This document shows positions 6,382-56,900 of a DNA stretch of 64,000 nt, piece after piece (the first letter of the stretch is position 1; each line of letters begins with the position of its first letter). A program made the translations under genes and the position numbers. The notes beneath the pieces are model-generated. The model did no database searches. It was not told the origin of the DNA and saw only the letters and a list, made by a program, of their open reading frames with translations. Origin of the DNA: Isoetes taiwanensis. Taxonomy: Eukaryota; Streptophyta; Lycopodiopsida; Isoetales; Isoetaceae. The stretch is from contig JAJEKV010000521.1 of assembly GCA_021234155.1 (NCBI GenBank), positions 1 to 64,000 of the forward strand. Direction: 5' to 3'.

Positions 6382-6492
6382 CGTCTAAATGAATCTCCTC
6401 GAGGGCGGGTATTATGCCCTCTTCAGGCGGATGCACTTTAGGCAATCCGTCAATAGGTCCAGCTGGCATATTAGGCACAAGTTCAGCCATTA

Positions 6493-11199: not shown

Positions 11200-13400
11200 T
11201 TTTGCCGCTCCTCGCCACAAACAGAGCTTGAGGAGGCCTGTCGTGCCTTGGCCCCTCACAAGTGCCCTGGTCTGGATGGCATTCCAATCGAGTTCTTCCA
11301 AGAATATTGGGATTGGGTGGGGGACTCAGTGCTGCAGACCTATCAAGATTTGCTTCAGGCAGAAGTGTTGGACTATAGGCTCAACACGGGCTGCATCTCG
11401 TTGATACCAAAGGTAAAGGAGCCAGCTGTCATTTCTGATTGGCGCCCCATCACCCTTCTGTCGGCAGTCTACAAAATTATTGCGAAGGCACTTTCGCTTA
11501 GACTGCAAGTTGTCTTGAAAGAGACTATTGATACCATGCAGTCTGGCTTCATTCGGGCGGTGATTCTCAGCAATGTAGCGGCCGACATTGAGGGCATTTC
11601 GGGCACGCCTAATGTGAGCATTCGGCCGGTGTGTACTTGAAGCTGGATTTCGCGAAAAGGCCTATGATAGTGTTGATTGGGCGTTCTTGAAAAGGATGAT
11701 ATTAGCCTTTGGATGTGGGGAGGCCTTTACTAGGTGGCTATGAAGCTCTTAGTGTCGCCGCAGCAACCCTCCAGGTGTCGCGTCGAGTCATCTCCGATAT
11801 TTGGGGTAGGGCGTGGAGTTAAGCGGGGATGCCCTTTGAAGCCCTTCCTCTTCACCATTGTAGCGGAGGCCCTCGACTGTTGACTTCCATGAGTGGGGAG
11901 GTTGGTGTGGTGGGAGGGCCGAGGATGGCAGATGGGTCGCAGCATTGGGAGTCCCGGTATCGACGATTCATTCCTCTTCCCCGCAGGCCGACGAGGGGAA
12001 TCATTAAAACACGAAGGAGATCTTTGGACACATTTTCCTTGTTTTGGCTGCCTCATGAATTGGACGAAGTGCTCGGCACTATGGCCGGCACGCACCGAGC
12101 CATGCCACGTGGGTCGGTGTCCCAATTCCCATGGCGAATCTCGATGCCGCAGAATGCGTGCTCTAGGCTTTTGGGTATTCCGTTCGGCATTGATATCTCA
12201 CGTCGGTGGGGGAGGACATTCGGTGGTGGGGTCGGCATCTCAATTGGTGGAAGGGGGGAGCTGTCCGGGCCCATGGCGTGGTCCACTGATGGGCGAAGTC
12301 CGTCCTATGCTCGACTCATATCTATATGGCCTCTATCATCCTGGCGCCAGAAAGCAAGGTGCAGGAAATCTCTTCTATGGTTCGTAACTTCATATGGGGA
12401 GGCAATGAGGAAGGGGCGGTCGTGAAGGTGGCATGGTGGAAGCAAGGCCCCCCAAAAAGGTCGCTGGGTGGACTCGGCTTCTTTGATCTTTCGCTGCATG
12501 GCAAGGTCCTCTTGTCTAAGTTTGTCTTTGCCATTCTTGAGAATGCGCTCGACTCCCCGGGCATGGTCTTGCTTCATCAATCGATGTCTCACTCGATAGT
12601 TTTCCACAAGCCGTCTGTGTCCGCGCGGCTCCCTTGGGCGTTGTTTGTGGATATCAGGCCGTATGCTCATGCCTCTCCGTTTCTAAAGGGGGCTCCCTAC
12701 GAGCACGGGAGAGGAGTCGTCCATTGTTTCCAATTGACGCCACCCCGTACATCCGGTTGGAGGCATCGCGGTGGTGGATCCCGCTTGGACCCACGCTTTT
12801 GTGGTTGCGGCGACCTCGGTGATCCCCGAAAACCGGCGTAGATGGAAGCGGTGTGGGGGTTTGGCGGTGGCGGATGATTGGTATATGGATGGCAATTTTT
12901 GGCACCTGGCGGCTTTTTCATCCATTTCGGCTTCAAGAGCGGGATTTATGCTATGCGGGTGCGGGTGGCTAATGCTCTACTACTTGCACCCTCCAGGGCA
13001 TCAGGCGTGTGTGGAAGTGTCACCGAAAGTAGATCCCTCAAATTTTGTGAAATCACTTTGTATGGGCACGGCAATTCAAGATGAGACTGCCTCCCTCGGA
13101 TGGGTGGAGTCTTGGTGCCGGGGATGATTGGGTCTTTATCACGGAGATGGGTATGGAACCTAATCTCGCCTCCCAAGATTTGGGTATTCTTTGTGGCGGA
13201 TTGTGCACCGTTTCGAGGGGGTGAACGCGTGGGTTCACCGGGATCAACCCGCTGGATCGGCGACTTGTGTCCTATGTGTGGTGACCGTGTGTGGAGACCC
13301 TGGAACACTGCATGTTTTCTCTGTTCAGATATCCAGCCGGCATGGCAGTGGGTTCAGCGCCTCTTTCAAACCTCGCTCCGCAGTCAAGAGGTTCTTTTGG
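11200..13400 (+). pseudogene. LINE-1 reverse transcriptase and zf-RVT region
   Basis: The RT starts with APHKCPGLDGIPIEFFQEYW and includes GCISLIPKVKEPAVISDWRP, LLSAVYKIIAKALSLRLQVV, the catalytic-box equivalent GIDDSFLFPAG (about 11956-11985) and the conserved thumb block SSMVRNFIWGG with GGLGFFDLSLHGKVLL (12326-12550). A zf-RVT cysteine cluster (DLCPMCGDRVW, near 13260-13300) follows. Many stops separate the blocks. This is ORF2 of a plant L1. Confidence 0.88.
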
Positions 13401-30337: not shown

Positions 30338-30650
30338 CCAAAGTTTGAGGGGTCTCTGGGTCGCGGAAAGGGTGCTTAGAATCAATTTGGGGACTCAAAA
30401 AGCAGTGAGCACCTTTTGGGGGGTTTCGGGGTTTTGGGGGTTCCAAAGTTTGAGGGGTCTCTGGCTGCCTAAAGGGTGCTTAGAATCCAATTTGGGGACT
30501 CAGAAAGGCGGGCAGAGCACCTTTTGGGGGTTTGGGGGTTTTGGGGTGCCAAAGTTTAAGGGGTCTCTTTTGCCTAAAGGGTGCTTAGAATCCAATTTGG
30601 GGACTCAAAAGGCGGGCAGAGCATGGATTTGGGGTTTGGGGGTTTTGGGT
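30338..30650. repeat. G-rich minisatellite, about three units of 105 bp
   Basis: Units start with CCAAAGTTT at 30338, 30442 and 30549, and each includes GGTGCTTAGAATC, TTTGGGGACTCA and a GGGGTTTGGGGGTTTTGGGG-like tract. The array keeps a plus-strand frame of 125 codons only because the units are near multiples of three; I do not treat this as a gene. It sits at the 5' side of LINE-3. Confidence 0.85.
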
Positions 30651-35515: not shown

Positions 35516-36749
35516 ATGACTTCTAGTTCTAGGATGCCCACATTGAAGGAGAGGGAGAATAACAAACGGCGAGAGCGGCGAAGGCGAGCTATTGCAGCCA
35601 AGATCTTTTCTGGTCTAAGACAGTTTGGGAATTACAAGTTGCCTAAACATTGCGACAACAATGAGGTTCTGAAAGCACTTTGCTCAGAAGCGGGATGGAC
35701 TGTGGAAGAAGATGGCACTACCTATAGGAAGGTGTTATTTTGTTTTATTGCATTTTTCTTTTCTAATTCATTTACAAAGACTTCTTTGCTTTTCTTAGGA
35801 CATCTTTCTGATATGATGGGTATCTATCTTTTTTATGCAGGGTGTGAAGCCATCAGAGCGGGTAGAGGCTTATGGTTCTAGGCCAGGTAGCCCTACTTCT
35901 TCTTTTGCAGGTGTTTCAGATGGTGCTTCATTGATCCCATGGCTCAAAGGACTTTCTGCTGGACTTAGCAGTGGAGCCAATGGCAGTTCTGGTGCCCCTT
36001 CAATGTGTGCTATGCATGGCAGTTCTTCTAGTGCACCGATAACACCTCCTCTCAGCTCTCCTAGGCCCAATAAAATGTTTGTGAAACCTGAATGGGACAC
36101 AATCAGGGAAGGTCAAGCAGTTCTAGGGACAAACAGTGCATTCCACTTTCCTACAACTTCTTCCCCGAATGTTCTGCAACATGGTGCACAGTTGATATCT
36201 TATGAACATGTGGATGGATGCCGAACTCCATGCTCTGAAGTTGGATGCATAACGCCTACATCTGGCTATATAACACCAACATCTGGCTGCTTAACTCCTA
36301 CCTCTGATGTCGGAGATTCTGAACAGCCTGAGCTTGAGTTTTGGAATCGGTATAATGAAAGCAGTGGCACAAGGTGGATCAATGGCATGCGCGTGTGCAA
36401 TTCTAATGGTTCTTTGGCCCTTGCAGGACCAAAGGGTGAGTCTAATTTTGGTCCATTTCCTGTTCCATGCTCAGAACTTATGCCAGAAACAGTTTCAGGC
36501 ATCTGGTGGCCAGGTCGGACTCAATGTTCGCCATGCTCAAGTGTCTGTGGTGTTGTTAAAAATAGACAAGACCCAATGGCAATGATGAAATCCAGTAGGA
36601 ATTCAGAACAAGTGGATCATGTGCCAATGGATTCTGATTTAGAATTATCAAGCTCAGAGCCTAGGGATTCAGCTCAGATAGCAGATTGCTCTCTGCAACG
36701 CAAAGAAAATTTGGAGTTAACACTAGCTACACCTGCATGTTCGATGTGA
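35516..36749 (+). CDS. BES1/BZR1-homologue transcription factor (two exons)
   Basis: Brassinosteroid-responsive plant transcription factor of the BES1/BZR1 (BEH) family, acting in the nucleus. Exon 1 is 35516-35731, the intron 35732-35840 (GT..AG, 109 bases, phase 0) and exon 2 35841-36749. The ATG at 35516 is preceded by an in-frame TAA at 35501. Exon 1 encodes the atypical bHLH DNA-binding domain: [40 protein letters not shown], then [13 protein letters not shown], where the family intron is normally placed. Exon 2 has the serine-rich GSK3-target region ([26 protein letters not shown]) and ends in an EAR-like repression motif LELTL. About 375 residues in total. No stop or frameshift; it appears intact. 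The usual PTWKERENN is PTLKERENN here. Confidence 0.95.
35732..35840 (+). other. Intron of the BES1/BZR1-like gene
   Basis: Donor AAG/GTGTTA and acceptor TTTTTTATGCAG/GGT keep the reading frame and join TTYRK to GVKPSERV, as in the family. Confidence 0.9.
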
Positions 36750-41674: not shown

Positions 41675-43497
41675 GTATGACATATTCAATAAAACTTAGA
41701 CTTATTCAGATTTAATAGATAGCACTTCAAGAATGTCATTATAAGAATATATGTATTGTTATATTATAATATTTATAAGTTTTAATTATATAAGTTTATC
41801 TTTAAATTAAAAGTATAATGGTTATCAAAGAATAAAATTGCTTTCCAAACTAATTTCCACTTGAATCTACTTAGAAACAGACATTTCAAGAATATAAAAT
41901 TTTCAATTTTTAGTAATTTAAGAAATTTAAAATTTAGCATTCATGATAATTTCTAAATGAAATCTGATGGCTTGATAAGCGATTCACTTAAAACTTTCTC
42001 CTCAAAACTGCCTCTGCAAATTTTGAAAACACTAAAAAGATGAAAGAGATCCAAATGCATGTTGAAGAGCTTATAAAAAACTTCCAGTAGCTTACACCCG
42101 GATGGGGATGGCAAGAATGGGCTCGTGAAGAGATTTTGCTAAAGTTGTATACTGAGGCTTATAAGCTCAGCACTTCTTGGTAAAATCCACAACTTTCTTT
42201 TGGTTTAAATTATTCTTCTTAAGTTGCTTTGTCTGAATTACTACCGTTTTTATATGCAGCCAATGTTGTTCAATGGTGTATAGGATAATTTGTGCTCAGA
42301 AAATAGGCAATGAACTTGATAACCTTGTTACTACAGTCAAATATTTGGATTTGGCAGTCTAAGCAAGGTTGACAGCAAATAAGCTTACAACCATAATGGA
42401 CAGACAAGGAAAACTTTGCACCACTATGCCCTCCTCTAAAGATGAGATTCTCATCGGCAAGGATGAGATCTTGGAGTTTTTAAATATAGGCAAACCTGGC
42501 ATACGCGTTCTTTGCATAGTTTGGATTTGGTGGAGTAGGTAAAACTACTTTGTTGGGCGCTCTTAGAAATTGCATTGTTAAAGAAGTTAGATAGGGAAAG
42601 AACCTAATAACCTACTCCAACTTCAAACAAACATATGACATATTCAATAAAACTTAGACTTATTCAGATTTAATAGATAGCACTTCAAGAATGTCATTAT
42701 AAGAATATATGTATTGTTATAATATTTATAAGTTTTAATTATATAAGTTTATCTTTAAATTAAAAGTATAATGGTTATCAAAGAATAAAATTGCTTTCCA
42801 AACTAATTTCCACTTGAATCTACTTAGAAACAGACATTTCAAGAATATAAAATTTTCAATTTTTAGTAATTTAAGAAATTTAAAATTTAGCATTCATGAT
42901 AATTTCTAAATGAAATCTGATGGCTTGATAAGCGATTCACTTAAAACTTTCTCCTCAAAACTGCCTCTGCAAATTTTGAAAACGCTAAAAAGATGAAAGA
43001 GATCCAAATGCATGTTGAAGAGCTTATAAAAAAACTTCCAGCAGCTTACACCAGATGGGGGAGAATGGCAAGAATGGGCCCGTGAAGAGATTTTACTAAA
43101 GCTGTATACTGAGGCTTATAAGCTTAGCACTTCTTGGTAAAATCTACAGCTTTCTTTTGGTTTTAATTATTCTTCTTAAGTTGGTTTGTCTAAAATAACC
43201 AACTCCAACTCCAAACAAACATATGACATATTCAATAAAACTTAGACTTATTCAGATTTAATAGATAGCACTTCAAGATTGTCATTATAAGAATATATGT
43301 ATTGTTATAATATTTATAAGTTCTAATTATATAAGTTTATCTTTAAATTTAAAGTATAATGCTTTCCAAACTTATTTAGAATTAGACATTTCAAGAATAT
43401 AAAATTTTCAAGTTTTAGTAATTTAAAAATTAAAATTTTGCATTCAAAATAATTTCTAAATGAAATCTGCTGACTTGATAAGCGATTTGCTTAAAAT
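41675..43497 (+). repeat. Three direct copies of a 280-560-bp repeat
   Basis: A block starting TATGACATATTCAATAAAAC occurs at about 41675, 42634 and 43220. Copies 1 and 2 extend for about 550 bases and include an NLR-like coding piece; copy 3 stops after about 280 bases. Copies 2 and 3 also share ACTCCAACT.CAAACAAACA upstream. The first copy begins immediately behind a GTPase exon end. Confidence 0.88.
42000..42640 (+). pseudogene. NLR resistance-gene fragment (NB-ARC P-loop)
   Basis: The plus strand encodes MKEIQMHVEELIK-like N-terminal sequence (42040-42090, repeated at 42995-43030). It then gives ILIGKDEILEFLNIGKPGIR and, after a one-base shift, FGFGGVGKTTLLGALRNCIV (about 42528-42590), the kinase-1 motif of plant NB-ARC proteins. 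Stops are frequent. NLRs are intracellular immune receptors; this is only a fragment of the nucleotide-binding region, lying in the big GTPase intron. Confidence 0.7.
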
Positions 43498-43794
43498 TAT
43501 TATGAGAGTTTTACAATCTTCAAGCTTTTACACTTTTAAAAATACTTTAAAAAAGTTTTAGATTGAGTTTATTGTTGATTAATTTTTATTATATTTTATT
43601 TCATCAATAATAAATTATTCAATAGTTATTATTAAAATATAAACGTAATGAATTTCAATCTAAAATTATCTGCTTTAAATATTTTTAGAAATTAACATTT
43701 TATTCATACAGTCTTTATCTTAGATTAGAATTTAGTTTTAAATAGAATAAAGTGAATATTAGGTTAGAAATCAATTTTATACTTAAGCAACTGT
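43498..43794. other. AT-rich intron sequence
   Basis: Very AT-rich spacer between the third repeat copy and the TIR element; no gene seen. Confidence 0.6.
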
Positions 43795-43825
43795 CATTAG
43801 AGTTTTTTTGAGGTCAAATAAGGGC
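43795..43825 (+). repeat. Left terminal inverted repeat
   Basis: 31 bases identical to the reverse complement of 56081-56111. Homology stops abruptly afterwards, although a GCCACGT block occurs in both subterminal regions. Confidence 0.93.
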
Positions 43826-44200
43826 CCTTACTCGATGCCACGTCAAAAAGCTCGCGGCCAATGGGGAGCCGAGCTTGTACAGAACTTTTTTACCGAGCCT
43901 TGCTTTCGCCTTTCCAGGTGTCAACTGCACGTAGCTTCGGTAATATCCGTGCCCTCTAGGTGGTGTGGGATTACACTGCGTGGCAATTATAACCGTTAGC
44001 TCAGCCCTCAATTCCCGCGCGGGTGTTTTCCACAACGGCGTTTGCTTGCAAGATCGATTGTTCGCGACAAGGGAGCTTCGGTTCACTTCGAACTGCCGAC
44101 TGCGCTAAAGGGAGTTTGACCATTTAAAAACTACGATCAAGGTAAAAATCGTAGCCTTTCCTAGTATTTCGATTCCGGCTCCACATTCTCCGATTTGAAT
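43826..44200. other. Left subterminal region of the TIR element
   Basis: Relatively GC-rich, with no convincing ORF. Probably contains transposase-binding and promoter sequence for the plus-strand genes. Contains CGATCAAGGTAAAAATCG, a short inverted repeat near 44131-44152. Confidence 0.4.
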
Positions 44201-45432
44201 TCGTGGACTAGATGGCTATAAAGCTCTATCACCGATCGGAAATGAGTTTGAAAGCTTCGTGGTGTCGCCAGGGAGCTTTCTTACACTCCAACCTCGCAAT
44301 GCGGAGTGAATGGCGAGTCAAAAGATCGCGGGGAGAAATGATGTTTCACGCATATTGGAAGGCTTTGGTGGTCGGATTCGGGAGAGCAAAGAGATATTTA
44401 TACAAGTAAGGCATGTATACACTCCAAATGAGATATGGCAAAAGAAAAAATAAGTTTAATTAACTTTCCCACGGTTAGAAGCAAATTGTGAGTATGTAAT
44501 TCTATGCAATCCATATTCAAATTAGATCGTTACTTATCCGGTTCATTCCTATTCTCTCAAAGGTTTGTGTATATCCGATGTGGAGAACACCGCCTCTTCA
44601 CACACGATGGCGATTGTATTCCATTGCTTTCACCAAGATATGGGCTCCTTGTTGTTGAAGGTAGCACACCCGGTGCAGCTCGAGAGAAAGGGGTATATGG
44701 TTACGGAGGTATGAATACTCTCCACGAAGATCCAAGCTAAGCGAGCTTCCATTGCTTGACTGTCCGATTTATCTCGTAGGCCTACGGATGCCACTTCTAT
44801 CTTATTAGCACGGAGTAAGTTGTCGCAGGAGAAATGTTCACGGCATTGAAGGAGAAGGGAGGAGTCTCCGGGCATGTGAAGACTAATTTAGGAATTGATC
44901 CATTCATTGCCATATTCAAGAGCCGAAACAATGTAAAGAAGACCTTTGAAGATGTTTACAGTTCAACAAACAAATTGGGTAGTTTTTAGATAAGGTATTT
45001 CTTGAAGGTTGGAGTGCTCGACTGCACGATGGAGCTGAATGTACTGAATGCAGGATAAGTCGAGACACGGTTCGGTTCAGATATTGCATTCGGAAGCAAA
45101 CTCTGTATGTGACTTTTAAGTATAGGAGATGGCGAAATGTCCGTGAAGGAAGAAAGTACGTCTGGATTCCTGTCGAACAAGATGACAATGATGGCACTCA
45201 TTTGGTTGTCATAGACTTGAACATTCATAAGGATAATCGGCTGTTCAAAAGTCTAAGAGCAGAGAGCGAGTGGTCTCTATTCGATGTTCGGCGGCAATTA
45301 GAGTTTGAGACAGACTTAAATTTCTTCCATTTCATGATAGATAGCCAGAAGGTGGGAAAGCGCAGAGAAGAATGCTATAAAGTGGGGTCATGCATGCCAC
45401 CCAAAGTCATATCTGTATATGAATCTATCTAA
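44201..45432 (+). pseudogene. TIR-element gene A, unknown protein
   Basis: The well-supported part runs from an ATG at 44834 (MFTALKEKGGVSGHVKTNLG) to the stop at 45432. One base is missing in a T run at 44983-44987, after which the frame continues VFLEGWSARLHDGAECTECR and ends KVGSCMPPKVISVYESI. The product would be about 200 residues, acidic-basic mixed, with a conserved-looking core (YVWIPVEQDDND, SEWSLFDVRRQLEFETDLNF). Upstream coding-like pieces at 44206-44403 and 44504-44708 may be earlier exons, joined by a GTATGA..CTCGTAG intron at about 44709-44780. I do not recognise the family. Palindrome array 1 starts 128 bases after the stop. Confidence 0.55.
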
Positions 45433-45559
45433 TATAAATATAAGTGATTGTTAATTGGAAATCTATTTTATATTAATTGCAAACATTTGCTTTCATTGGA
45501 ATATAAGACTTCAAGTAGTCATGTTGCGAAATTATATACAACATAAATTGTGGAAGTGT

Positions 45560-45838
45560 TTTCACACCGTACTTACGGTGCGAAATTGTGGATCTCATAA
45601 AATATTGAAGGGCCATTTTCGCACCGTAGCCACGGTGCGAAAATGTGCATAGCATAGAAAATGAAAGGGGCAGTAACATACAATAAGATATTGAAGGGTC
45701 GTTTTCGCACCGTAGCCACAGTGCGAAAATGTGCATAGTATAAGAAATGGAATCGGTATTTTCGCACCGTAGCCACGGAGCGAATTTGTGCCAAACATAA
45801 ATCACGAAGTGTTATTTTCGCATCGTTGCCACGTTTTT
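45560..45838. repeat. Palindrome array 1 (five units)
   Basis: Units at 45560-45585, 45617-45642, 45703-45728, 45760-45785 and a partial one at 45816-45833. Each has a left arm TTTCGCACCGT, a 4-nt loop (AGCC or similar) and a right arm ACGGTGCGAAA. Spacing is 57, 86, 57 and 56 bases, and the spacers are related (ATATTGAAGGGCC, ATGTGCATAG). It lies between genes A and B. Confidence 0.93.
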
Positions 45839-45915
45839 AGTCTCTCTTGCAAATCAAGCCGCTACAAAGGCGCTCACATTCTAAGTGTCATAAATCGAGG
45901 CGCTGGTCCACGAAA

Positions 45916-47393
45916 ATGGCAAATAGCGGGTCAGATAAGGCATGGGAGATATTTAGCGCATGGTATGACAAAATAGTGGAGAAAGAACGGGATTTTCGTC
46001 AGAAGCATCCAAAAGAGTTCGAGGAGGAGCTAGAGGAACCAGTGGATGCAACCACTGTATATAATAATTTTTGCCTCAGCGTAGACATTATGGCAGAGTG
46101 TAACAGGTTTACTGATGCGTATGGCGGCATCCTTCATAGCTTCATGGATAGAGCGGGTCCTAACGTGAAACCATGTCCTGTGACTGGTTTGCCTTCACTA
46201 AGCATGCAAGCTTTACTTAAGATGTTTCCGACACCTGATCAAGACCGAATTAGAAGGTCCTTGAAGAGACTACCTGCAGAACTGTGCAGGCAAGAGGGCA
46301 AGGAAAGTTTTTTCGGCCTAGATATCATGTTCAGCACATACATGATTTACACTAAGCCAAGCAAAGATGCCAGTTCTTCTTCAAGTGCATAGGTCGCTCA
46401 AACAGAACGCCCCGCCTCACCAGTAGAGGAGTCGATAGATCCTGAGGAAGAGAAGCTCGTACTGGGAAATGAGGAGAACGAGGTTGTGGAAGAGGAGGTC
46501 TCGGAGAAAAAATTGTCCACTTGGGGGTTATCGGAAGCATATCCCATCCATGTAGGTGGGAAACCATACTTGTTGCTGCCGGACATATGTGAAGTGACAG
46601 GGTTGATAGAAGACGCGATATTGGGCCAGATATATGCGTATGTTGTAGGCCTGGGAGGACTTATAGACTTTGAGACTGATGTCCCCAGACAAATGATGGA
46701 GGCTGTGACTTATGATGGATCCTCAATACCTCCAGAGGATGCATTTGAACTTGTAATGCAACGTCGGGGGTTGAAGGGTATGAAGCGGTGAAAGATGTCA
46801 AATTTGAAGCTGCTAGCTCTTCAAAAACTGATCCTGTATTCATAGAACGTGAGCTGTCGAAGTCCTCTTTCAAAATAACAAACCCAGCTGTTGTCGAACG
46901 GGACAAAAGAGAGGTATTTATCTGGTTTCATTTTCTATTTCTTCTTGAATCTGATGTTTCTTTTATGCAGGAGTTATTTATTGATGACTTCTGTGCAAGG
47001 CATCAGAGAGTCACCCTAGGTCGGGACGCCAGTATTGCACATTATATGGGCTACCTTCACAAGGGGGAAATTATTGTGTTTCACAATAAATATAGTCCAT
47101 CTGGAGTACAGGAGGTCCTCAAGCTTAAGCCTCTGTCATTAGCTGGCAACCACGTGCCCCTAGCCTCAAACTATGATCGAAAGTGGTAGGTGTGAGATAG
47201 GGCTATCGCGAATGTATGTCTTCGGGGCTTCAAAATGTACTCTGGCCCTTGCAAATAAAGCGACTCTAGGCTTGGGTGGGCGGACAAGGAAACACAGCGC
47301 TTGTCCCGTGTAATGAAGGACCCCGACATATTGTATCCGTTAGATGCAATTGGGGCTGGAGTAAAAGAAGAGGACTTAGAAGATTTTGATTAA
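45916..47393 (+). pseudogene. TIR-element gene B, unknown protein of about 480 residues
   Basis: Starts MANSGSDKAWEIFSAWYDKI and continues through CPVTGLPSLSMQALLKMFPT and RIRRSLKRLPAELCRQEGKE. An in-frame TAG at 46390 is followed in the same frame by a glutamate-rich linker and STWGLSEAYPIHVGGKPYLL. A one-base shift near 46780 leads to VKDVKFEAASSS, FIDDFCARHQRVTLGRDASI and a C-terminus VMKDPDILYPLDAIGAGVKE, with three more stops (47187, 47193, 47256). 46914-46970 has splice-like ends but is in frame and only 57 bases. The N-terminal half is acidic. No family recognised. Array 2 begins 224 bases downstream. Confidence 0.65.
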
Positions 47394-47616
47394 TTACTCA
47401 CGGGCCACGATGCCAATAAAAGGAAATGTACTTAAAAACTTTTGTATTAATATAATGTCTTTTCTATAAATTGTCTTTTTCTATAATGTATCAATTGTTC
47501 ATTAATTGTTAGAATTCAATGTGAGCAATAAATCCTTGTTAGATGTATATGTTAGGTATTCTTTAATGGTGGCTACAATGCAAAAACGGGATGTCGGCAG
47601 TTTTTGGACTGCACGA

Positions 47617-47812
47617 TTTCGACCGTGGGCTATGGTGCGAAAAACATTGTCGGCGATTTTTTGATCGATTTGCGCCGTGGCTACGGTCTGCGAAAATAGG
47701 CTGTCGGCATTTTTGGACTGCCCTATTTCGCGACCGATCAGGGCTGGAAAATAAAACAGATGTCGGCAGCTTTTTTGACTGCCCGATTTCGCACCGCGGG
47801 CTACCATGAACA
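47617..47812. repeat. Palindrome array 2 (four degenerate units)
   Basis: Units at 47617, 47669, 47726 and 47787, spaced 52-61 bases. The arms are eroded (for example TTTGCGCCGTGGCTACGG). The spacers share GTCGGCAGTTTTTTGGACTG and are different from those of the other arrays. Located between genes B and C. Confidence 0.85.
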
Positions 47813-47872
47813 TTTTTCGGCCTAGGGGTTTATGGGATCGGGACGCATAATATTGCTTATTTGAATTTCTTC

Positions 47873-48070
47873 TCCTTGCTAAAATCGCTCATGTCCATGG
47901 AAGGCGCTAGCTCGAAATCCCACAAAATGAGGCGCTTGACCGCCTTTAATGTTGACGAAGTCTCATTACTAGCAAATACCGAGACTTCTATTCCAATCCG
48001 AGGGCGCAGGCGATTATTCCCATCACAAGCCAGCCAGATGGGCGTAGAGGGAGGTTGTCCTTACGGGTAA
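47873..48070 (+). CDS. TIR-element ORF C, short unknown protein
   Basis: Likely start at the ATG near 47891-47897 (MSMEGASSKSHKMRRLTAFN), with an open frame to 48070. The product is basic, with a GRRRLFPSQASQM stretch. It may be the first exon of a longer gene, since the next clear coding sequence (gene D) follows at 48609. No homologue recognised. Confidence 0.35.
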   Translation, partial: SLLKSLMSMEGASSKSHKMRRLTAFNVDEVSLLANTETSIPIRGRRRLFPSQASQMGVEGGCPYG

Positions 48071-48608
48071 GACCGGGCAAACCCCCTTGGACATATGCCG
48101 CCCACACTATTAGTAATAGTGTGGGCGAATATTTTCAAAACCCGGCCAGGTACTTCCTAGTCGGGTCACCTTCTTTGGGCCGTAAGGTTGTTGGGGAAGG
48201 AGTTTCCCGTGGACGCCACCGCCCCGCCACAATATTCCATTTCGGATGACCCAGATTGCGGCAGCGAGTTCTCTCTCGATCCAGCTGCCTGCCGTTCCCC
48301 CATCCGCTGAGAGGAGACATTGAGGAAGCCGCTTCGGGGTCATACGTCGTGTGGCCGGGTTGATGCATCCATGTCCGGCGACGGAGTCACGGCCATTCCA
48401 GTTCTTGTGTAATGAGCTAGGATTACATGTTGAAACCACGAGGGGGTTACACACACGGCCGTGTGCTTTGGCCGGCTGACCAGGCCATGGTGCCCAAAGT
48501 GGGCTCATGAATCGGCCTATCTCCTCGCCTCGCACGTTAGCCACTATTGCATTCCCAAACGTTTGGCGGTGGTGGGGATGAAGAACCGCAGACTATGGAA
48601 GTGCAAAG
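48071..48608. other. Region between ORF C and gene D
   Basis: No convincing plus-strand gene. A 144-codon minus frame (48110-48544) covers most of it, but its composition does not look protein-like. It contains a long palindrome at 48099-48127. It could be an inserted sequence or an intron. Confidence 0.35.
48099..48127. other. Perfect 13-bp-arm hairpin
   Basis: CGCCCACACTATT, a 3-nt loop AGT, then AATAGTGTGGGCG. It is unrelated to the CACCGT palindrome of the arrays. Confidence 0.9.
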
Positions 48609-49317
48609 ATGACCAACATCACCGTCCAAGATGATCGCCAGGATCGGGACGAGCCAAAGAAGGTCAAGATCACCTGGTCCAAGAAGATCGGCAGGATCGA
48701 AAGCAAAGAAGATCATCATCAGGTGGACCAGCATGTTGATCCCGGAAACCTAGTTCGAGTGGAACAGTAATAGAAAGCCCCGGTGAAAGCGGAAATCCAG
48801 CCGAAGAAAAAGAGCAAGAAGCCTCCCAGGCTTGTTCCTAGTTGGAGACAAGCCGAGAGAGATCAAAACCAAGGAGCAGTGATAAGCTTGATAATAAGGA
48901 AGCCTAAGGAAGGGGAGCCTAGTGTTAGATATGGTGGCCCCGAGAAGATAAAGGGTCCTCCTAGCACTTTCCTCGGGCTTTGAGGGAGATTAGGTCTTGG
49001 TGTGCACGCACCCGACCTCGATTCCCAAGCTTGCCTTCGCTAGAATGGTGGGTTTGAGATGCAGGTGAAATTATTGAGAGGAGGAAGGAATCAAGGAGGA
49101 AGAGGAGGGATGTGAGCACCAGACTTCGGTCCGATGGTGGAGGAGGAGGTGAATAGAATCCAAAGGTAGGCCTTGGACATCTTTGCAAGAGGCAGCAGAG
49201 GCTCGCCTAATTAGCCTCTTTGAGGACAGTGTCCACTGTTGTGTGCACAGAGGACGTGTTACTGTGCAGGGCAACGACTATGCCTTAGCTAGATACTTCC
49301 GTGGATGCCTCCCTTAG
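48609..49317 (+). pseudogene. TIR-element gene D: histone H3-like protein
   Basis: Two islands resemble histone H3. Island 1 (frame of 48609-48983) has a lysine-rich tail, KKSKKPPRLVP at 48813-48845, then SLIIRK at 48885-48902. The distance from KKPPR to LIIRK equals that from KKPHR to LLIRK in H3. Island 2 (49153-49317, next frame) reads SLQEAAEARLISLFEDSVHC, then CVHRGRVTVQGNDYALARYF, RGCLP and a stop. This follows the H3 alpha2-loop2-alpha3 pattern LQEAAEAYL..LFED..LCAIHA.RVT...D..LARR.RG. Between them about 220 extra bases suggest an intron or decay; DVSTRLRSD near 49112-49138 fits the H3 DFKTDLRF loop. A double stop at 48768-48773 splits the long N-terminal tail. The tail and sequence are far from canonical H3; a CENH3-like or element-specific variant is possible. 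Array 3 follows by 130 bases. Confidence 0.65.
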
Positions 49318-49446
49318 CATCCTTTTGTAACACTTTTTTGGTTGTTAATATATGAGTGTTTTGGTATTTATCGTGATGAGTGTTTTATATTTATCTGTAA
49401 TTATTTGCTATTCTATTTATTGCGGCTGTGCATTTATCTACTAGTG

Positions 49447-49583
49447 TTGACCGTGGCCACGGTGCGAAAATGACTATTCCACATTCTGTGAGAAGGTCTA
49501 TTTCGCATCGTCGCCACGGTGCGAAAATAGTAATTCCAAAGTTTTTGGAGGGCGCAATTTCGCACCGTGACTACGGTGCGAAA
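49447..49583. repeat. Palindrome array 3 (three units)
   Basis: Units at about 49444-49469, 49501-49526 and 49558-49583, exactly 57 bases apart. It lies between the convergent genes D (plus) and E (minus), so it is downstream of both. Confidence 0.93.
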
Positions 49584-49765
49584 AAGCATGTTCCATATGT
49601 GCATAAAAGACATTACAAGAGCTTTTCAACTTGAAAATCTGCGGTAAATAGATGGATCACATGTATCACTTATGGTTACATACTTATAACTAGGAATGTC
49701 TGAAACATTCTAGTAACAGAATTTAAAACTCATATAAGAGGCATAGCATACATGAATGCAGAAGT

Positions 49766-50050
49766 TCATTCGCAATCGGGATCATCCTGAGCAGGTAGTT
49801 GAGTGATGCGATTTATCTCATAGATGCGATGCTCTGGAACATACCAAAGGTGGATAGAAACACGATAAAACCCGTTGGAAGAACGATTTCGACCCTCTGG
49901 TACTCCTTCCAGCCAGGGATCAAGGGGGATACCCCTCTGAGAACATCTATAAAGATCATTATATGTCATAGTGCAAGTGATGGAGTCTATATCTTCGGGA
50001 CGAGGAGGCAAGGTAGACCCCCTGTAATAAGAATAACCAGGCCGAGACAT
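49766..50050 (-). CDS. TIR-element gene E, 94-residue unknown protein
   Basis: Minus-strand ORF starting MSRPGYSYYRGSTLPPRPED and ending ITQLPAQDDPDCE. It is uninterrupted. Central blocks are MTYNDLYRCSQRGIPLDPWL and VSIHLWYVPEHRIYEI; tyrosines and prolines are frequent. The frame extends further upstream to 50167, but the added residues look non-coding, so I choose the internal ATG at 50050. It is divergent from gene F. No homologue recognised. Its 3' end faces array 3 at 183 bases. Confidence 0.5.
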   Translation of the reverse strand: MSRPGYSYYRGSTLPPRPEDIDSITCTMTYNDLYRCSQRGIPLDPWLEGVPEGRNRSSNGFYRVSIHLWYVPEHRIYEINRITQLPAQDDPDCE

Positions 50051-50372
50051 AGCAAATGGATGCCTTCTGCATTGAATGGAGTTGTACTTATATCGAACAA
50101 AATTATTGACATGCACTGTAGCAGCATTATTGGTTATATATACGAGCATAATGTACAAAATACACATGTAAATATAATGTACGTATATACCATATATATA
50201 TGGTTTCTCTTTAAATAGGCATCTATGCCTTCATTGTCTTTGTCTGTTTCTTGTTTGCATGCTCCTTGCCTCCCTGTCCGCTTCTTGTTGCTCCTTGCCT
50301 CCTTGTCCGCTTCTTGTTGCTCCTTTCTTGCATGCTCCTTGCCTCCCTGTCTGCTCCACTAGTTTCCTGCAA

Positions 50373-50942
50373 ATGGTAAGTTTGCAAGAACATCCTCGTT
50401 GGGCTGATCCGGAATACCTGCAAGCATGCGGCAGAATTAATAATTGCACTTTTGATGATTTTTTTAATAACTTTTGGGAGCACTGAGGGCGTCACGGTCC
50501 AACCACAGAGCTTGCAAGGCAGCTGATCAACTTCATTATCGATCGCTATACTCGTCATCTCCCTCCACTGCAGGAGATCAGTTCGAGTCATGCAAGGATC
50601 AGTCTAAGTGCTTTGGGACTTCTCGAACCCCCCTCAGATTTAGAACATAGGCTAGAACAGTTGAAGGACATGCTTTTCCATGGTTTCATGGCCTACTCTC
50701 TGGATCACTATGCACCTCTGGTCATTCCTACTAGTGAAAAGAATAGGATTTATATCCTCATTGAACTTTACAACTTCCACTACAAATCTTTTGTGGATAT
50801 TGATAAGCTCCTATTCCAATCACTTGACTTCAACATCCTGTGGTTACTGTCTAAATTCCCCGACTGGGATACAATTCCTTGGGATACACGTGACCTATGG
50901 CTACATAGCACACATCACATAATACGTACATATCACAGGTAA
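50373..50942 (+). pseudogene. TIR-element gene F, unknown family (paralogue of G)
   Basis: Starts MVSLQEHPRWADPEYLQACG and runs in one frame to 50942, interrupted only by a TGA at 50484. At that place gene G has arginine in EWRLQHPPT, so a CGA to TGA change is likely. Blocks shared with G are LARQLINFIIDRY, LLEPPSDLEHRLEQLKDM, AYSLDHY, RIYILIELYNFHYKSFVDI and WDTIPWDTRDLW. About 190 residues, probably helical. No known domain recognised. A pyrimidine-rich leader (50230-50370) precedes it, as for G. Array 4 follows by 207 bases. Confidence 0.65.
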
Positions 50943-51148
50943 AGATACTCCAATGGAATATGTGTATAAACTGGTATAAAGATTTTCATATTAATTAAGT
51001 ATATAAGCAAGTGATTTCCGTGTAATTAAGTAACATCCTTATATTATCATGTATTATCTTGGCAATCTTACACTTTTAGTGTAATGGAATGATTTCTTCT
51101 ACCATTTTCCTTGTATTTTCTCATGTGAATGTTCTATTTGTGGTTATA

Positions 51149-51330
51149 TTCGGAACCGTGGCCACGGTGCGAAATCGCCTCTGTTACAAATTATTGAAGG
51201 GCCTATTTCGCACCGTGGCTACAGTGCGAAATACGTGGATCCAGTGTAGTTACAGGGCCCATCTTTCGCACCGTAGCCACGGTGCGAAATCGACTCAGTT
51301 ACAAACTATTGAAGGGCCTATTTCGCCACC
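51149..51330. repeat. Palindrome array 4 (three units and a half)
   Basis: Units at 51149-51174, 51206-51231 and 51264-51289, and a half unit from 51321. Spacing is 57-58 bases; the spacers share ACAAATTATTGAAGGGCCTA with array 5. Downstream of gene F. Confidence 0.93.
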
Positions 51331-51539
51331 ACTGAATGGTATAATACTTCAGCATTATTGGTATTATTTTTCAACATTCTTGGTATTATACTTCAACAGT
51401 ATTAGTATTATACTTCAACATTATTGGATTCGAAGCTATAAATTCTTTCACCCTGCTTTCACTTCTCACCTTCGTTCCATGTTTTCACCTTGCTTTCACT
51501 TCTCGTGTTCTCACTTGCTTTCACTTCTCACCTTGTGTT

Positions 51540-51870
51540 CCGTGTTCTTTGCTAATTGATCTTCCTTGTTCCTTTATCTCCTTGGTCTTTGGTGTTCCTT
51601 GTTCCTTGCTACTTGATCTTGAATGTTTTTCTTTGCTACTTCATCTTCGTGCTCCTTCATGCTAACTGATCTTGTTCCTTGGCTACTTGATCTTTTTCTT
51701 GCTTCCTTGCTACATGATCTTCATTGTTCCTTGATCTTCTTGCTCCTTGTTCTTCCTTGTTCCTTGCTTCTTGCTACTTGATCTTGATCCTTGTTCCTTG
51801 CTTCTTGCTCCTTCTTCCTTGCTCTGCTCCTTGTTCCTTGCTCCGTCGGTGATCCTTGCTTGCTTTTACA
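51540..51870 (+). repeat. Pyrimidine-rich CTTGTTCCTTGCTACTTGAT repeats
   Basis: Irregular repeats of CCTTGTTCCTTGCTACTTGA fill the leader of gene G. A shorter, similar tract (CTTGCCTCCTTGTCCGCTTC) precedes gene F at 50255-50345. It may be a promoter or leader feature common to the paralogues. Confidence 0.8.
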
Positions 51871-51871
51871 A

Positions 51872-52413
51872 ATGATTGGACCCAATCCTCCCTGGACTAC
51901 TCCAGAAGGCCTGGAAGCATGCCCCAGGCATTCTGTGCGGCCTGGAATGGATGAGCTATTTGACCATTTCTTGGAGTGGAGGTTGCAGCACCCTCCCACC
52001 AAGGAGCTTGCAATGGAGTTGATCAACTTCATTCTGGAGCGATTTGATTGTAGTCATGAGAAATTAATCCATCTGAATGTTATAGGAGACTTGCAATGAG
52101 GGGAATGCTTGAACCCCCTCCTTATCTGGACGAGATGCTACATCAATTGAGGCCTCTTCTTCGTGCTGGATATTTAGCACACTCTCTGGATGCATACATA
52201 TCAGAGTTCATTCATGAAATTTCTAAGGGACAGATGTATGGCCTTATTAGGGTGTACTACAACGAGTACAACGGTTTTGTGGAGTTGGGTCCGCTCTTCT
52301 TCCGTGAGTATTATCCTGTGGAATTACTTTTTCTAATGACTAGGTACCCCATATGGTGGGAAGAATCAGGCTGGGATATGCGTGAGCTCTTGACTCCTAA
52401 CCCAGATATCTAG
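51872..52413 (+). pseudogene. TIR-element gene G, unknown family (paralogue of F)
   Basis: First frame 51872-52099 (MIGPNPPWTTPEGLEACPRH, then LAMELINFILERFD); second frame 52096-52413 (MLEPPPYLDEMLHQLRPLL, AHSLDAYISEFIHEI, MYGLIRVYYNEYNGFVELG, WEESGWDMRELL). The two overlap by ATGA at 52096. Since F runs through this point in one frame, a one-base indel is the simplest reading, though stop-restart cannot be excluded. About 180 residues. Function unknown. Array 5 follows by 130 bases. Confidence 0.65.
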
Positions 52414-52542
52414 GGTTACTAGGGACCTTTGCTATCTATCATACATAATTCATATGATACCGTGTTAATAAGTTCTCTAAATGTTCTCTAATATGTTAAT
52501 ATTTTCTCTAATATGTTAATATTCTCTAGTTACAGGCCCATA

Positions 52543-52900
52543 TTTCGCACCGTAGCCATGATGCGAAATCGACTCAGTTACAAATTATTGAAGGGCCTAT
52601 TTCGCACCGTAGCCACGGTGCGAAATCGGTTCAGTTAAAAATTATTGAAGGGCCTATTTCGCACCGTAGCTACGATGCGAAATACGTGGATATTCTCTAG
52701 TTACAGGCCCATATTTCGCACCGTGGACTCGGTTAAAAATTATTGAAGGGGCCTATTTCGCACCGTGAGCCACGGTGCTTAAATCGACTCGATACAAATC
52801 ATTCAGGGCCTATTTCGCACCGCAGGGCTACTGCGGTCGCTAAATACGTGGATATTCTCTAGTTACAGGCCCATATTTCGCACCGTGGCCACGACGCGCA
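52543..52900. repeat. Palindrome array 5 (seven units)
   Basis: Units start at 52543, 52600, 52657, 52714 (truncated), 52756, 52812 (degraded) and 52875, about 57 bases apart. The spacers alternate between GACTCAGTTACAAATTATTG and ACGTGGATATTCTCTAGTTA types, so a two-unit period of about 114 bases is superimposed. It lies between convergent genes G and H. Confidence 0.93.
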
Positions 52901-52985
52901 ATACATGCATCGAGTTTACTTACAATACAACAGTGAGCATTATCGAACTGATAAATAAACCAACTCTTTTACAGTAGAGACAATA

Positions 52986-55280
52986 TCAAGAGCTCTCAAT
53001 ATGGACATAATCTTTGCCTTGCCTATGTCTCAATGATCTCCACTCCCTTAATCGCTCAACAGCTGCGGACTTATACCAAGCTTCCCTCCTTTTTTCCCGT
53101 TGGGTTTTTTGTCTAAACAACTTAGCAAGTGTTAATTCACTCTGGTTCCGTGATTTCTTCACCCATTTGGACACGATCCTTCTGTAAAACTATTGACACA
53201 TCTGCTGTAAGGAATTCCCTGGCCCGAACCTACGTGTTGAGGTGAAACGGAAGAATGCATTCTTTGCTTGCTTATGGGACTTCTCCATTCCCTGTGTATT
53301 CCAAATTCCCAGGCTTCCATATTCCCTGACAAACCACACGCCATGTGCGAATAGAATATGGACATAGTGAGTCAAATTGGCCTCACCCCATGCTGTCAGG
53401 AAAGACTTAGTGAAGTTTGTGACTGCCTCCTGGAATTTGGCAACATCATTTTCCTGCACTACCTTTTCTGCATTTCCTTTACCAGTACAGAGAAATCCTG
53501 CCATGCCTTGATTTTCTTCAGGCGTGATCTACCACGATCATTTCGATCATCCTCAGCTGCAATAAGATCCTTGTAAGCTTCCCAAACACCAGATAAGTTC
53601 TCTTTCGCGGGAGGCAAAAACCTCTTAGCCTTTGGACCACCCATACTAGGTTTCAAGGGAACCTTGCCGGATACCTTTGGATCTTGAAGTATTTTGTAGT
53701 GCCCACCATGAAGTCCCACACTAGATAGCACCTTTTCAACTTCATGCATGGCAGCTTCCCTAGAGCTTTGGGGTGATTTATTCCAAGCAAACAGGATACT
53801 CATGTACACCATCTTGTCTATGATTCTCAAGAAAGCATGAAGGGTGCATATGTGTACTCTTCTTAACGGAATTGGCAGAATTGGCATCAAGGTTGTGTCC
53901 TTCTCTTCTCTATTTGGTGGCTCATCCTGGACACAGTCTAATGTACTCTTGTCCAATCCAATTGAATCTCTTCTTGCATAGAGCGGTAGGGACAAGCATG
54001 AGTAGTCTTACCAAGCACCATGCTTCATTACGTACATGCATTTTATTGTCTTCAAATCTGTAAAGAAGATGCCATTCAACCTCGTACTCACCATATCCGG
54101 AACTGCAAGTTTTTCTCCGATCGAAGTGAGAGGCAATCATTGTGGGAATGGGTGTTTGATCAAAAACCCATTTTGGGATATCGTGATTTTCCTCGGTACC
54201 AAATAAACCAACCCACCAAATGTGATCTTGACCGGACGGAAAACTTACCACCTAGATTTGACTCTTCATTCCACGTATTCAAAGCTCGTTCATTAAACTC
54301 GGTGAAACCCTCTCGTACTTTCGCCTTTCACCAATTCCATTTCATCCGGCTTCAAAACAATTCTTAGTTTGCCGGCAAGACTCTTCTACCTTCATATCAT
54401 AAAATCAAACCAAAAAGCTGAAGCATTCTACTTAAGTCTATCCAAAGAATTGTTATTTTCATTAAGGCGTAAAAGTATCACCAAACTTCGACTTCTTCTT
54501 ACCTTTGGTATAGGATGCCAATGTATCCAAGTTGACAACGCTGGTCAGGTGATACATATCACCAAGAAGCTCTTGCACTTGTCTGTTTCTCGATGACCTA
54601 CAAGTCCTCACACTAGTCATCCTTGGTAGTAGAATAGTTTTGGTAATGCCTTGTTGTTTAAAGCCATCCCGCAAGCATCTGAACAAAGCAATATAAGCTT
54701 GCCTACTTATTGAAACATTGTCACCGCAGTTCTTGCATTGATTCCGAGGTTTGTTGTTCCCCAACTCCAGCGGTTGATGTACTACGACTTGCCTACGGGG
54801 AAGCTTTTAACATTCTCAATACATCATCTTTAGTAACTAATTTCTTTAATAAACCCGGCAATATTAGCGGGTTTTCTCTATTTTATTACGCAAGATTTGG
54901 ATCAACAAGCTTTTTAATAGCCATGACTCTTTTTTGAGCCTCCACCCCGGGGGCTAATATATTTATGGGCTTCATGTTTTTTGCCCTCTCCCTGATCCCC
55001 AGTGGAGTTCTTTTCAAGGTTTGACCCGCTTGTGAAGGGAATCATTTTCTTGCGCAACCCTCTTCATTCCTTGCTGCAGTGCATTCCTTTCAGTCACCAA
55101 TTTCTGATTTTCTACCTCCAATTCATTGAGCTTGCGGCATTGTTGAGACAGAAAGTAATTCGCCTGTTGGAGCTGATTAACATCTGATAAAACTTTGCAA
55201 TTGAATCCATACAAGTGGTTATACATGGCACGCAAATAGAATAGAATAGAATAGTTTTTTTTAACGTCCACGGAGACCAA
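52986..55280 (-). pseudogene. TIR-element gene H, transposase candidate
   Basis: Minus-strand pieces in order: a coiled coil (55280-55014; CRKLNELEVENQKLVTERNA); a block with CKNCGDNVSISRQAYIALFR and KTILLPRMTSVRTCRSSRNR (54764-54462); GFTEFNERALNTWNEESNLG ending at a GTAAG donor near 54250; a middle block (54251-53922); a basic block (53995-53459; HICTLHAFLRIIDKMVYMSI); and the most conserved-looking part, LTHYVHILFAHGVWFVREYG, SLGIWNTQGMEKSHKQAKNA (53504-53190). The H..H..YGSL....QG.EK.H pattern reminds me of uncharacterised transposase-like proteins of other eukaryotes; this is memory, not a search. A one-base shift near 53490 and several stops are present. It is the largest gene and sits near the right TIR. 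Confidence 0.5.
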
Positions 55281-55330
55281 TAGGTCATGGGATCAATATT
55301 ACCATTAACCAAATTATTACAGTAACCTAG
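55253..55330 (-). mobile_element. Short LINE 3' fragment
   Basis: After a T run, GGAGACCAATAGGTCATGGGAT resembles the LINE-3 end at 25386-25410 (GGAGACCAATGGGTCTATGG). It is probably a heavily 5'-truncated LINE copy (minus), inserted between gene H and the captured gene. Confidence 0.45.
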
Positions 55331-55923
55331 TAACCCTTGCTGTCCCTTACAAGCAAATTCAATAAGACCGGATGCAGAGTGGAAGTTTGGATGGGCTCGA
55401 CTGAAAGGATCACATGGATACAGTGGTCTTTAGCCCAGAGGTCTATATTCATGGCTCCAGAAGCTCGCAATGCATCTTCATCTATTGGTTGCTTCCAAGT
55501 GAACTTATTCCTGTAAGGCAGGCATTCTTTTGGCACTTGCACTCTAAATTGACCCTCGGAATTAGTTTGATCCTGAAACAGAAGTATTAGAAGGAAGAAC
55601 ACTCAAAGGAATGCAATGACAACTCGGAAACCAAATACCTTTACCATTGACGTTGCAAAGGACCGAGAACCGGAGCGGAGATTAGAATTAGGAAGATTCT
55701 TGCCAACAAACAGAGCGAAATTGAAATTTTTCGCTCTATTTGCTGGCAAGAATCCGCCATAATTCGAATTCAAAAACTGCCTGGGCACGATGGCAAGATC
55801 GTTGGCGCTCGATGGCGCGATGGCAAAGGTCGATGGCGCGAGGGCAAGCTCGATCGATGGCACTGAAGGTCGATGGCATAAGCTCGAAGGTGGGAAAACG
55901 AAAATCCTAGATGTAATCATCAA
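55327..55923 (-). pseudogene. Two-exon host-like gene near the right TIR, possibly organelle-targeted
   Basis: Exon 1 (about 55914 to 55637) starts MITSRIFVFPPSSLCHRPSV and ends RSGSRSFATSMVK, a serine/arginine-rich, acid-poor leader like a mitochondrial or plastid presequence. A GTATTTGG donor and a TTCTGTTTCAG acceptor remove 55575-55636. Exon 2 continues DQTNSEGQFRVQVPKECLPY, RNKFTWKQPIDEDALRASGA, MNIDLWAKDHCIHVILSVEP and ends near 55327. No stop inside. I do not recognise the protein. It looks like a captured host gene segment; the 3' part may be lost to the LINE fragment. Confidence 0.5.
55695..55754. other. Imperfect 26-bp inverted repeat
   Basis: GATTCTTGCCAACAAACAGA and the following GCGAAA (55695-55720) pair with 55729-55754, with two mismatches and an 8-base loop. 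It lies within exon 1 of the captured gene and encodes the related peptides PANRAKN and VGKNLPN on opposite sides. Confidence 0.85.
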
Positions 55924-56080
55924 ATATTCAGGTCGTTAGGAAATAATGATTGTGGGGTTAGGTTCAGGGGTTAGGTTCGGAGGTTAGGTAGTTAGGTTAG
56001 GGGAGAGTGAAAGTTAGGTATGGAGGGGGGAAGCTAGGTTTGGATCCTACGTGGCGGCCCCCCTAATATATTCTTAGGAG
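55790..56080. other. Right subterminal region
   Basis: Contains short GATGGCGCGA repeats (55800-55880) and a run of GGTTAGGTT-like repeats (55950-56035) before the TIR. Possible transposase-binding or promoter sequence. Confidence 0.5.
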
Positions 56081-56111
56081 GCCCTTATTTGACCTCAAAA
56101 AAACTCTAATG
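56081..56111 (-). repeat. Right terminal inverted repeat
   Basis: Reverse complement of 43795-43825, 31 of 31 bases. Confidence 0.93.
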
Positions 56112-56900
56112 CATACTTTTGATCTAAAGATAAAAATAGATTACTAAAATCAATAAAGTTAAAAATACATATAATCTTATCATGCCACCCTTGAAACATA
56201 TCTATTAGATTTGAATAAGTTTAAATTTTATTAAATATGTCATAGGTTCGTATTTCTGGTATTTGCAGCTTAAATATATGGGCCATAGACAATAGTATTT
56301 AACAAAAAGGATTGAACATAAGAATGGAAGAGAAAGGAACATCTGGAACTTTCAGATAGTAATCTACCGATGATAAGAAAAAAGAAGGAAAATATAATAA
56401 GCAGAAGGGAAGCTTGGACCTTGCTCTAGGTTTAAATGATTTTCTAATAATATTCATCTCTTGGCTAAGCTTTTTTGACTGACTAATGCAGTTCCTTATT
56501 TATAAACATATCAAGCAGAGGTTCTCAGGGTGGCCTCAGTTGGATGCAGTATTTAAGGTAGACCTACTTCTAGAATGCACGATGCATTCCAGAGAGCTAA
56601 TGGATGAAAGAGAGTACTATCAATTGTTTGGACCTTATGGGGCATTGCATTAAAATATCGCAGAGGTAGCTTTTTTCTTTCCTTTCAAAGTTAGAAAGTT
56701 ATTTTGAATGTCATAAAATAAAACAGTAGCGCCAACATGTGATGTGTTGACTTGCAGCTATCTGCCAAAGTTCATTCTCTGCTAGAGGACCTTGCAACAG
56801 AATTTGAAGAATCAACAAAAGAAAGTGATTTGAGTATGTTTTCTGGCTTGGGTTAAATTTGTTGATGCATTGTTGTTTCAGCCAGCATATTAATCATCAC

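Follow-up and report, generated by a model that had tools for sequence, protein, structure and literature searches.

What kind of unit lies between two perfect inverted repeats at positions 43795-56111 of a contig of the lycophyte Isoetes taiwanensis, and how did it come to stand there? We took up this question for a stretch of 64,000 nucleotides (contig JAJEKV010000521.1 of assembly GCA_021234155.1, positions 1 to 64,000; hereafter the window), in which a preliminary description had proposed a gene-rich element with terminal inverted repeats (TIRs) of a type that it did not recognize. Our analysis shows that the interval is one degraded copy, now a dead relic, of a mobile multi-gene TIR element, that this element is real, large and expanded in its host, that its insertion chemistry is unusual and that its gene set is unexplained. 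In agreement with the preliminary description, it matches no family in the libraries used. We consider it likely that the element represents a large family of DNA transposons of autonomous type, in which the product of one gene, H, would act as the transposase and the element would be joined to a flush or near-flush cut in its target.

The element occupies many sites in the host genome

The ends of the element are perfectly complementary, as previously described, over a length of 32 bp rather than the 31 bp first given:

43795..43826, forward strand: left TIR, 5'-CATTAGAG..., 100% complementary to the right end, with matches in the genome
56080..56111, reverse strand: right TIR, 100% complementary to the left end, with matches in the genome

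No further copy of this end is found inside the window, even allowing nine substitutions. In the host assembly (1,658,258,908 bases in 1110 contigs), the 32-mer matches with at most one mismatch at 167 forward and 176 reverse places, 343 in total, compared to none on either strand for its reversed pattern; because this number counts ends, it corresponds to a copy number of well over a hundred. The expectation of other paired copies is thereby borne out, and the opposite outcome that the preliminary description had considered, a locus with no further copies of these ends, is contradicted. The first 106 bp of the element have 507 candidate places in the assembly, and the best 40 of these 507, which were scored, are 98 to 100% identical.

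Positions were obtained for about the first 100 of the 343 end matches, and both flanks were read for 15 TIR pairs, a chosen set that was partly picked for a length near 13 kb; it leaves out two further pairs, on C985 (14.5 kb) and on C1013 (20.9 kb). Nine of these 15 pairs span 12.8 to 13.1 kb (C937, C926, C1027, C1019, two on C907, C1025, C930 and C941); the others are the window copy, at 12.3 kb, and pairs of 3.8, 4.5, 10.4, 14.7 and 18.4 kb. The ends read 5'-CATTAG...CTAATG-3' in the window copy and in other copies. In ten copies followed from the left end, collinearity with the window copy holds for the whole stretch reached, with identities of about 79 to 97% in alignment blocks of at least 500 bp between copies. 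The unit bounded by the 32-bp TIRs thus occupies many unrelated sites and carries collinear genes at them. Nested insertions are frequent among the copies; C1036 lacks gene B (see below), C1037 lacks most of the interior, and C1032 contains 3704 N.

In many genome copies, for example L033, L034, L035, L040, L051 and L057, the same 32-bp end is joined to a different right-end sequence (TTGTAAGAGTATATT...), which suggests that there are several subfamilies or non-autonomous derivatives.

A collinear set of genes with palindromes at their 3' ends

The element carries A, B and E on the forward strand, G1 and G2 on the reverse strand, C and D again on the forward strand, and H on the reverse strand, in this order. 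Seven of these eight genes are present in the window copy:

44504..45432, forward strand: gene A, located by tblastn of an open sister frame; 302 amino acids (aa) in C1100, here with stops and frameshifts
45916..47306, forward strand: gene B; 467 aa in C1063, broken in the window
47914..48948, forward strand: gene E; 347-aa open frame in C1063, heavily broken here, the weakest coding evidence of the set
49769..50230, reverse strand: gene G1; 154-aa frame with 86-92% amino acid identity in C1063, C1039 and C930
50373..50942, forward strand: gene C; 189 aa in sister copies (C930), with a single in-frame stop here
51872..52413, forward strand: gene D; 196 aa in C1039, frame broken here, a paralogue of C
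52989..55602, reverse strand: gene H, the candidate transposase; 747-aa open frame in C930, with several frame breaks and stops here

C930, C1036 and C1072 also have G2, a tandem paralogue of G1 (31-34% identity), which the window copy lacks. C and D are likewise paralogous, with E values of 3e-20 and 6e-13 for two parts of the alignment. CT-rich, low-complexity tandem stretches at 50200-50360 and 51540-51860, just upstream of C and D, are possibly leader repeats common to both paralogues.

The sister copies thus carry open versions of the genes that are broken in the window, as the preliminary description had thought possible, and the coding regions are real. For A, B, E, C, D and H, we compared copies by the ratio of nonsynonymous to synonymous substitution rates (dN/dS), using comparisons with at least 80 shared codons; these comparisons are not independent, because each gene has one reference copy. 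The ratio lies at 0.20-0.53 for A (below 1 in 10/10 comparisons), 0.30-0.68 for B (9/9), 0.22-0.65 for H (5/5) and 0.17-0.94 for C (5/5), at 0.35-1.28 for D (4/5) and at 0.49-1.20 for E (5/8). A and B are probably helper or anti-silencing genes that were under selection in the source copies, and the same may hold, less clearly, for C and D.

H has 4306 first-look candidates in the genome, and the best 60, which were scored, include relatives down to about 50% identity, several of them free of stops; B has 4652 such candidates, of which the best 91 were scored. Keeping one row per locus (60 of 77 rows for H, 88 of 106 for B), 16 of the 60 listed H loci have a listed B locus within 20 kb, compared to a random expectation of about 0.13, and all 16 pairs are convergent like the pair in the window. 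Since both lists are best-scored subsets, an H locus with no listed B is no evidence of absence. Nearly all the coding regions were unfamiliar to the preliminary description. Pfam, applied to the whole H product, to five open sister proteins and to 20 separate window frames, gives no family above its curated cut-off; no known function emerged for A to E or G1, and a Protein Data Bank (PDB) search with gene B returned one non-significant chain. Weak Pfam matches to IML1, NRD1_2, Phage_TAC_18 and coiled coils fall below the curated cut-offs and were dropped. No match to Rfam was obtained over 43700-56300.

Between the genes stand five arrays of a 26-bp repeat unit, TTTCGCACCGTRGCCACGGTGCGAAA, and its variants:

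45560..45825, no strand: palindrome array 1, past the 3' end of A; z -5.86 for a single folded unit
47633..47796, no strand: palindrome array 2 (degraded), past the 3' end of B
49460..49583, no strand: palindrome array 3, where E and G1 converge with their 3' ends
51165..51289, no strand: palindrome array 4, past the 3' end of C; unit folded
52543..52885, no strand: palindrome array 5, where D and H converge with their 3' ends; unit folded

The regular palindromes noted in the preliminary description are specific to the element: allowing up to eight substitutions, the unit has 18 matches inside it; the remaining 51.7 kb of the window contain none, and 20 single-base shuffles of the element give one altogether. 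Five arrays stand at matching places in the window copy, C930, C1039 and C1072; C1100 has six clusters, one of them a single half-site near another, and two or three arrays are seen in C1036, which is shortened, and in C974, C1063 and C1045, where the stretch is interrupted or ends (C1032 and C1037 were left out of this comparison and of that for G1 and G2). Seven of the eight genes have one of the five arrays just beyond their 3' end. In C930, the arrays start about 80 to 305 bp past the ends of A, B, E, G1, C, D and H (that of E is less firmly placed), and none is found in the gaps flanked by 5' ends only, that is, from the left end to A, from G2 to C and from H to the right end. Three well-kept units fold as RNA with -17 to -26 kcal/mol (z -4.5 to -6.5). 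From this placement, we infer that the arrays act where genes end: they would probably terminate or insulate close-packed and often convergent genes, or else be a source of small RNA. An integron-like cassette, made up of a gene and its 3' palindrome, was considered as a conceivable further reading.

Insertion without a regular target-site duplication

Nearly all DDE transposons leave a short target-site duplication (TSD), which arises because the two target strands are cut at staggered positions. The TSD sought by the preliminary description did not emerge: among the 15 flank-read pairs, 0 have an exact duplication of 3-9 bp and 1 has one of 2 bp, and matching flank positions across the 15 pairs stay at 23-36%. 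The window copy illustrates this situation, having entered a local AT-rich repeat, R, whose fourth copy, in inverted orientation, it splits at 43794/56112:

43736..43794, no strand: left flank, inverted copy of target repeat R up to the insertion point, from repeat comparison and flank alignment
56112..56251, no strand: right flank, target repeat R continuing right after the element, from repeat comparison and flank alignment

The other copies of R (41676-41993, 42606-42946 and 43194-43496) are about 300-340 bp long and lie within a few kilobases; in the same area, 43000-43197 repeats 42047-42240 at 91%. When the two flanks of the element are joined, they align ungapped with two of the three other R copies, and the third lacks the left stretch.

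Together with three further sites, for which paralogous empty copies were aligned, the window gives four empty sites with a junction change of 0, 0, 0 and +1 bp. The junction at C926 is exact in all four aligned empty copies (of 40 listed), the nearest difference lying more than 30 bp away; at C937, all four aligned empty copies (of 58 listed) are ungapped; and at C1025, all four (of 40 listed) lack one T that is found at the filled junction. C1027 is uninformative, since its flank repeat stops short of the junction and no empty copy spans it. A TA or AT duplication concealed within the ends was rejected, because the empty sites at C926 lack the extra bases that it requires. Across 59 distinct end flanks, the strongest bias is an A at position -3 (31/59), which is weak, and there is no strong target consensus. 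The lack of a regular TSD is well supported by these data; that every single insertion event was flush is less supported.

Gene H as the candidate transposase

The preliminary description had seen none of the transposase motifs of hAT, Mutator, CACTA, Harbinger or mariner elements. We find, on the reverse strand, that H has a D..D..C(2)C..H(4)H..E order of residues like that of the CACTA/Transib/RAG1 group, which makes it the best transposase candidate of the element. In RAG1, the zinc ligands are C727, C730, H937 and H942. Its catalytic residues are D600, D708 and E962 (PMC9099191). The open H protein of C930 (P0002) has D358, D456, C477-x2-C480, H688-x4-H693 and E713, in that order. The spacings between the two D, from the second D to the first C, between the two H and from H to E are 98, 21, 5 and 20 in H and 108, 19, 5 and 20 in RAG1.

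Both D and both C are kept in all three sequences compared (P0002, P0001 and L094), the H pair in both relatives that reach this region, and the E motif, GMEKSH, is present in P0002, in L094 (in another frame) and in the window. P0001 (663 aa, ENA source) is the one protein-database relative found among 4782 candidates (E 4.3e-69), and it lacks the C-terminus. A PDB search with the C-terminal third of H lists RAG1 for 9 of 11 sequences at non-significant E values of 0.5-0.84, and the three alignments displayed are ungapped, with H, H and E in register. The case for H is made by its residue pattern and not by similarity alone. The other searches gave no relative: IMG/VR scanned with P0001 yields three pattern matches, the PDB yields two coiled-coil chains with P0001 alone and none with the whole H product, and, with E values up to 10 allowed, Pfam lists no CACTA-type family for either P0001 or the open H protein.

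These data are consistent with the following sequence of events. The H product would be a DDE transposase with active-site and zinc residues of the RAG1/CACTA type, which would bind both ends and excise the element; the target would then be cut flush, or nearly so, on both strands, in place of the usual stagger of 2-9 bp, and the element would be joined there. As an alternative last step, the freed ends may be sealed into a double-strand break by end joining, for which the small changes at or near the C1025 and C937 junctions leave room.

Several observations weigh against this reading. The similarity of H to RAG1 is statistically non-significant throughout (E 0.08-0.84), also in Pfam, where RAG1 scores 0.098 and 0.08 and is surpassed over nearly the same stretch by the unrelated family IML1 (0.029, 0.0033 and 0.025, below cut-off); the RAG1 match is lost with longer H queries and with a five-row profile, and two AlphaFold predictions of low confidence (mean predicted local distance difference test scores of 35 and 45) give H no fold support. 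The H frame of C930 diverges from that of the window right after the E motif, which makes the true end of H uncertain and possibly frameshifted. Gene E looks near neutral between copies and is the least certain gene. On the insertion side, one of the 15 pairs has an exact 2-bp flank match (C907, 29391502) that may be a duplication, the base adjoining the left end of the filled C937 copy differs from all four empty copies (L059/L060 versus L087-L090), and the filled C1025 copy lacks three bases, 9-13 bp left of the junction (L071/L072 versus L079-L082). A clean flush insertion does not predict the changes at C1025 and C937, which are perhaps a carried donor base, a repair trace or later decay. 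Moreover, activity, excision and end binding by the element are putative.

Comparison with known systems

The closest parallel is the CMCT group, which comprises CACTA, Mirage, Chapaev, Transib, Plavaka, ESTA and Lanisha and is characterized by a DDE transposase whose second D and last E enclose C(2)C and H(3-4)H, by termini that are mostly 5'-CA..TG-3' and by TSDs of 2-5 bp (PMC12730594). The element shares, at the motif level, the order of these residues in H, which is kept in its relatives, and it has TIRs with 5'-CA...TG-3' termini. As for sequence similarity of H to a named family, the RAG1 matches are non-significant. The element differs in that about eight genes are present with palindrome arrays at their 3' ends, and in its flanks, where the scarcity of 2-bp (1/15) and absence of 3-9 bp duplications (0/15) also count against our reading. 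Given the absence of the 2-5 bp TSD and the non-significant RAG1 similarity, we call the element CMCT-like: it would work like a CMCT transposon as far as its features are visible, and we do not file it as a member.

Among individual systems, H resembles Transib, ProtoRAG and RAG1 in having H-x4-H followed by 20 residues to E and in the weak ungapped local alignment to RAG1. Transib elements make a 5-bp TSD and have CACAGTG-like ends that resemble recombination signal sequences, whereas the present element, in a plant host, has no 5-bp TSD and ends in CATTAGAG; no RAG2-like gene appeared in the Pfam scans of its proteins. Plant CACTA/EnSpm elements share the plant host, the CA..TG ends and the large size, and differ from this element in its CATTA rather than CACTA ends, its lack of a 3-bp TSD and the missing Pfam CACTA family. 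Helitrons have no TIR and encode a Rep/helicase protein, in contrast to the 32-bp TIRs found here and the lack of a Rep/helicase Pfam match. Maverick/Polinton or virus-like elements carry DNA polymerase B, an integrase, a packaging ATPase and a capsid, and no significant Pfam match to such proteins was obtained in the tested coding pieces. Spy, of the PHIS superfamily, leaves no TSD and prefers AAATTT (PMC4482050). It is similar in being a TIR element of the cut-and-paste type without TSD, but the 59 flanks show no AAATTT preference and H has no PHIS-type Pfam match.

Alternative explanations

It is possible, although we think it unlikely, that the element belongs to a lineage already proposed, above all Lanisha (Maumus, McDaniel and Carey 2020), an explanation that disputes novelty and overlaps with ours on mechanism. 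Lanisha has been counted among the CMCT lineages, is credited with the motifs C(2)C and H(3-4)H and is said to resemble EnSpm; for CMCT lineages, the same source gives TSDs of 2-5 bp (PMC12730594), as opposed to the absence of 3-9 bp TSDs in our 15 pairs. The lack of a CACTA-type Pfam family for P0001 and the open H protein also speaks against it. Identity with Lanisha is one of the two main doubts about the transposon reading, the other being whether H, judged here by its sequence, is a true enzyme of the RAG/CACTA type. Two authors of the 2020 proposal reportedly work on a moss genome, and the host group may be close.

Explanations without a transposase of this kind fare less well. A linear extrachromosomal DNA, plasmid- or virus-like and with TIRs, could have been captured into chromosome breaks by end joining; such capture would agree with the missing TSD, the many genes, the extra T and three missing nearby bases at C1025, the changed base at C937 and the lack of a strong target consensus in the 59 flanks. 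We nevertheless regard it as improbable: the 32-bp ends are kept at 343 places, no target base is lost at any of the four informative junctions although end joining usually trims, H has a DDE-like skeleton, and no significant polymerase, capsid or packaging family appears in the tested coding pieces, the sole PDB match of the five-row H profile (E 0.46) being to a chain that bears the name major capsid protein and is confined to the coiled-coil stretch. The missing TSD would equally suit a Crypton-like circle that owed its insertion to a recombinase of the tyrosine or serine type. That we consider very improbable, as it requires a core shared by target and element where the 59 flanks show only a weak A at -3, no recombinase family matches the tested pieces, and long perfect TIRs would be unexpected. 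Finally, the reading of the locus as two unrelated short repeats, resembling miniature inverted-repeat transposable elements, that bracket it by chance is refuted by the clean empty sites and by paired copies that span about 13 kb and carry the same genes.

Other features of the window

Outside the element, the clearest host gene seen is one for a BES1/BZR1-type transcription factor at 35525-36749, with a BES1_N domain at 35525-35698 (Pfam E 3e-35) that identifies the host as a land plant. Pieces of a Ty3-type retrotransposon (reverse transcriptase, H2C2 zinc) lie at 495-6400 on the reverse strand, a reverse-transcriptase fragment of another element at 11140-12841, and three tandem copies of a G-rich 105-bp unit at 30338-30649.

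Implications

Beyond the existence of a transposon family, the element may represent a separate superfamily of DNA transposons in a lycophyte-like plant, with catalytic and zinc residues of the RAG1 type, flush insertion without a TSD, and seven or eight conserved genes that share a palindromic 3'-end module, a proposal that we put forward tentatively and to which we give slightly less than an even chance. A narrow search of the open-access literature found no paper on I. taiwanensis DNA transposons with TIRs, and for Lanisha it found PMC12730594 alone, which cites the Repbase report; this does not by itself prove that the element is undescribed. We know of no more gene-rich TIR transposon in any land plant. 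If the family inserts as we suggest, it would offer a natural test of what sets the stagger of target cuts, being a high-copy, TSD-free element with an enzyme that appears akin to the source of V(D)J recombination. If it also forms a superfamily of its own, the RAG/CACTA world would gain a branch in plants, with an altered geometry of strand transfer and an unusually complex set of helper genes.

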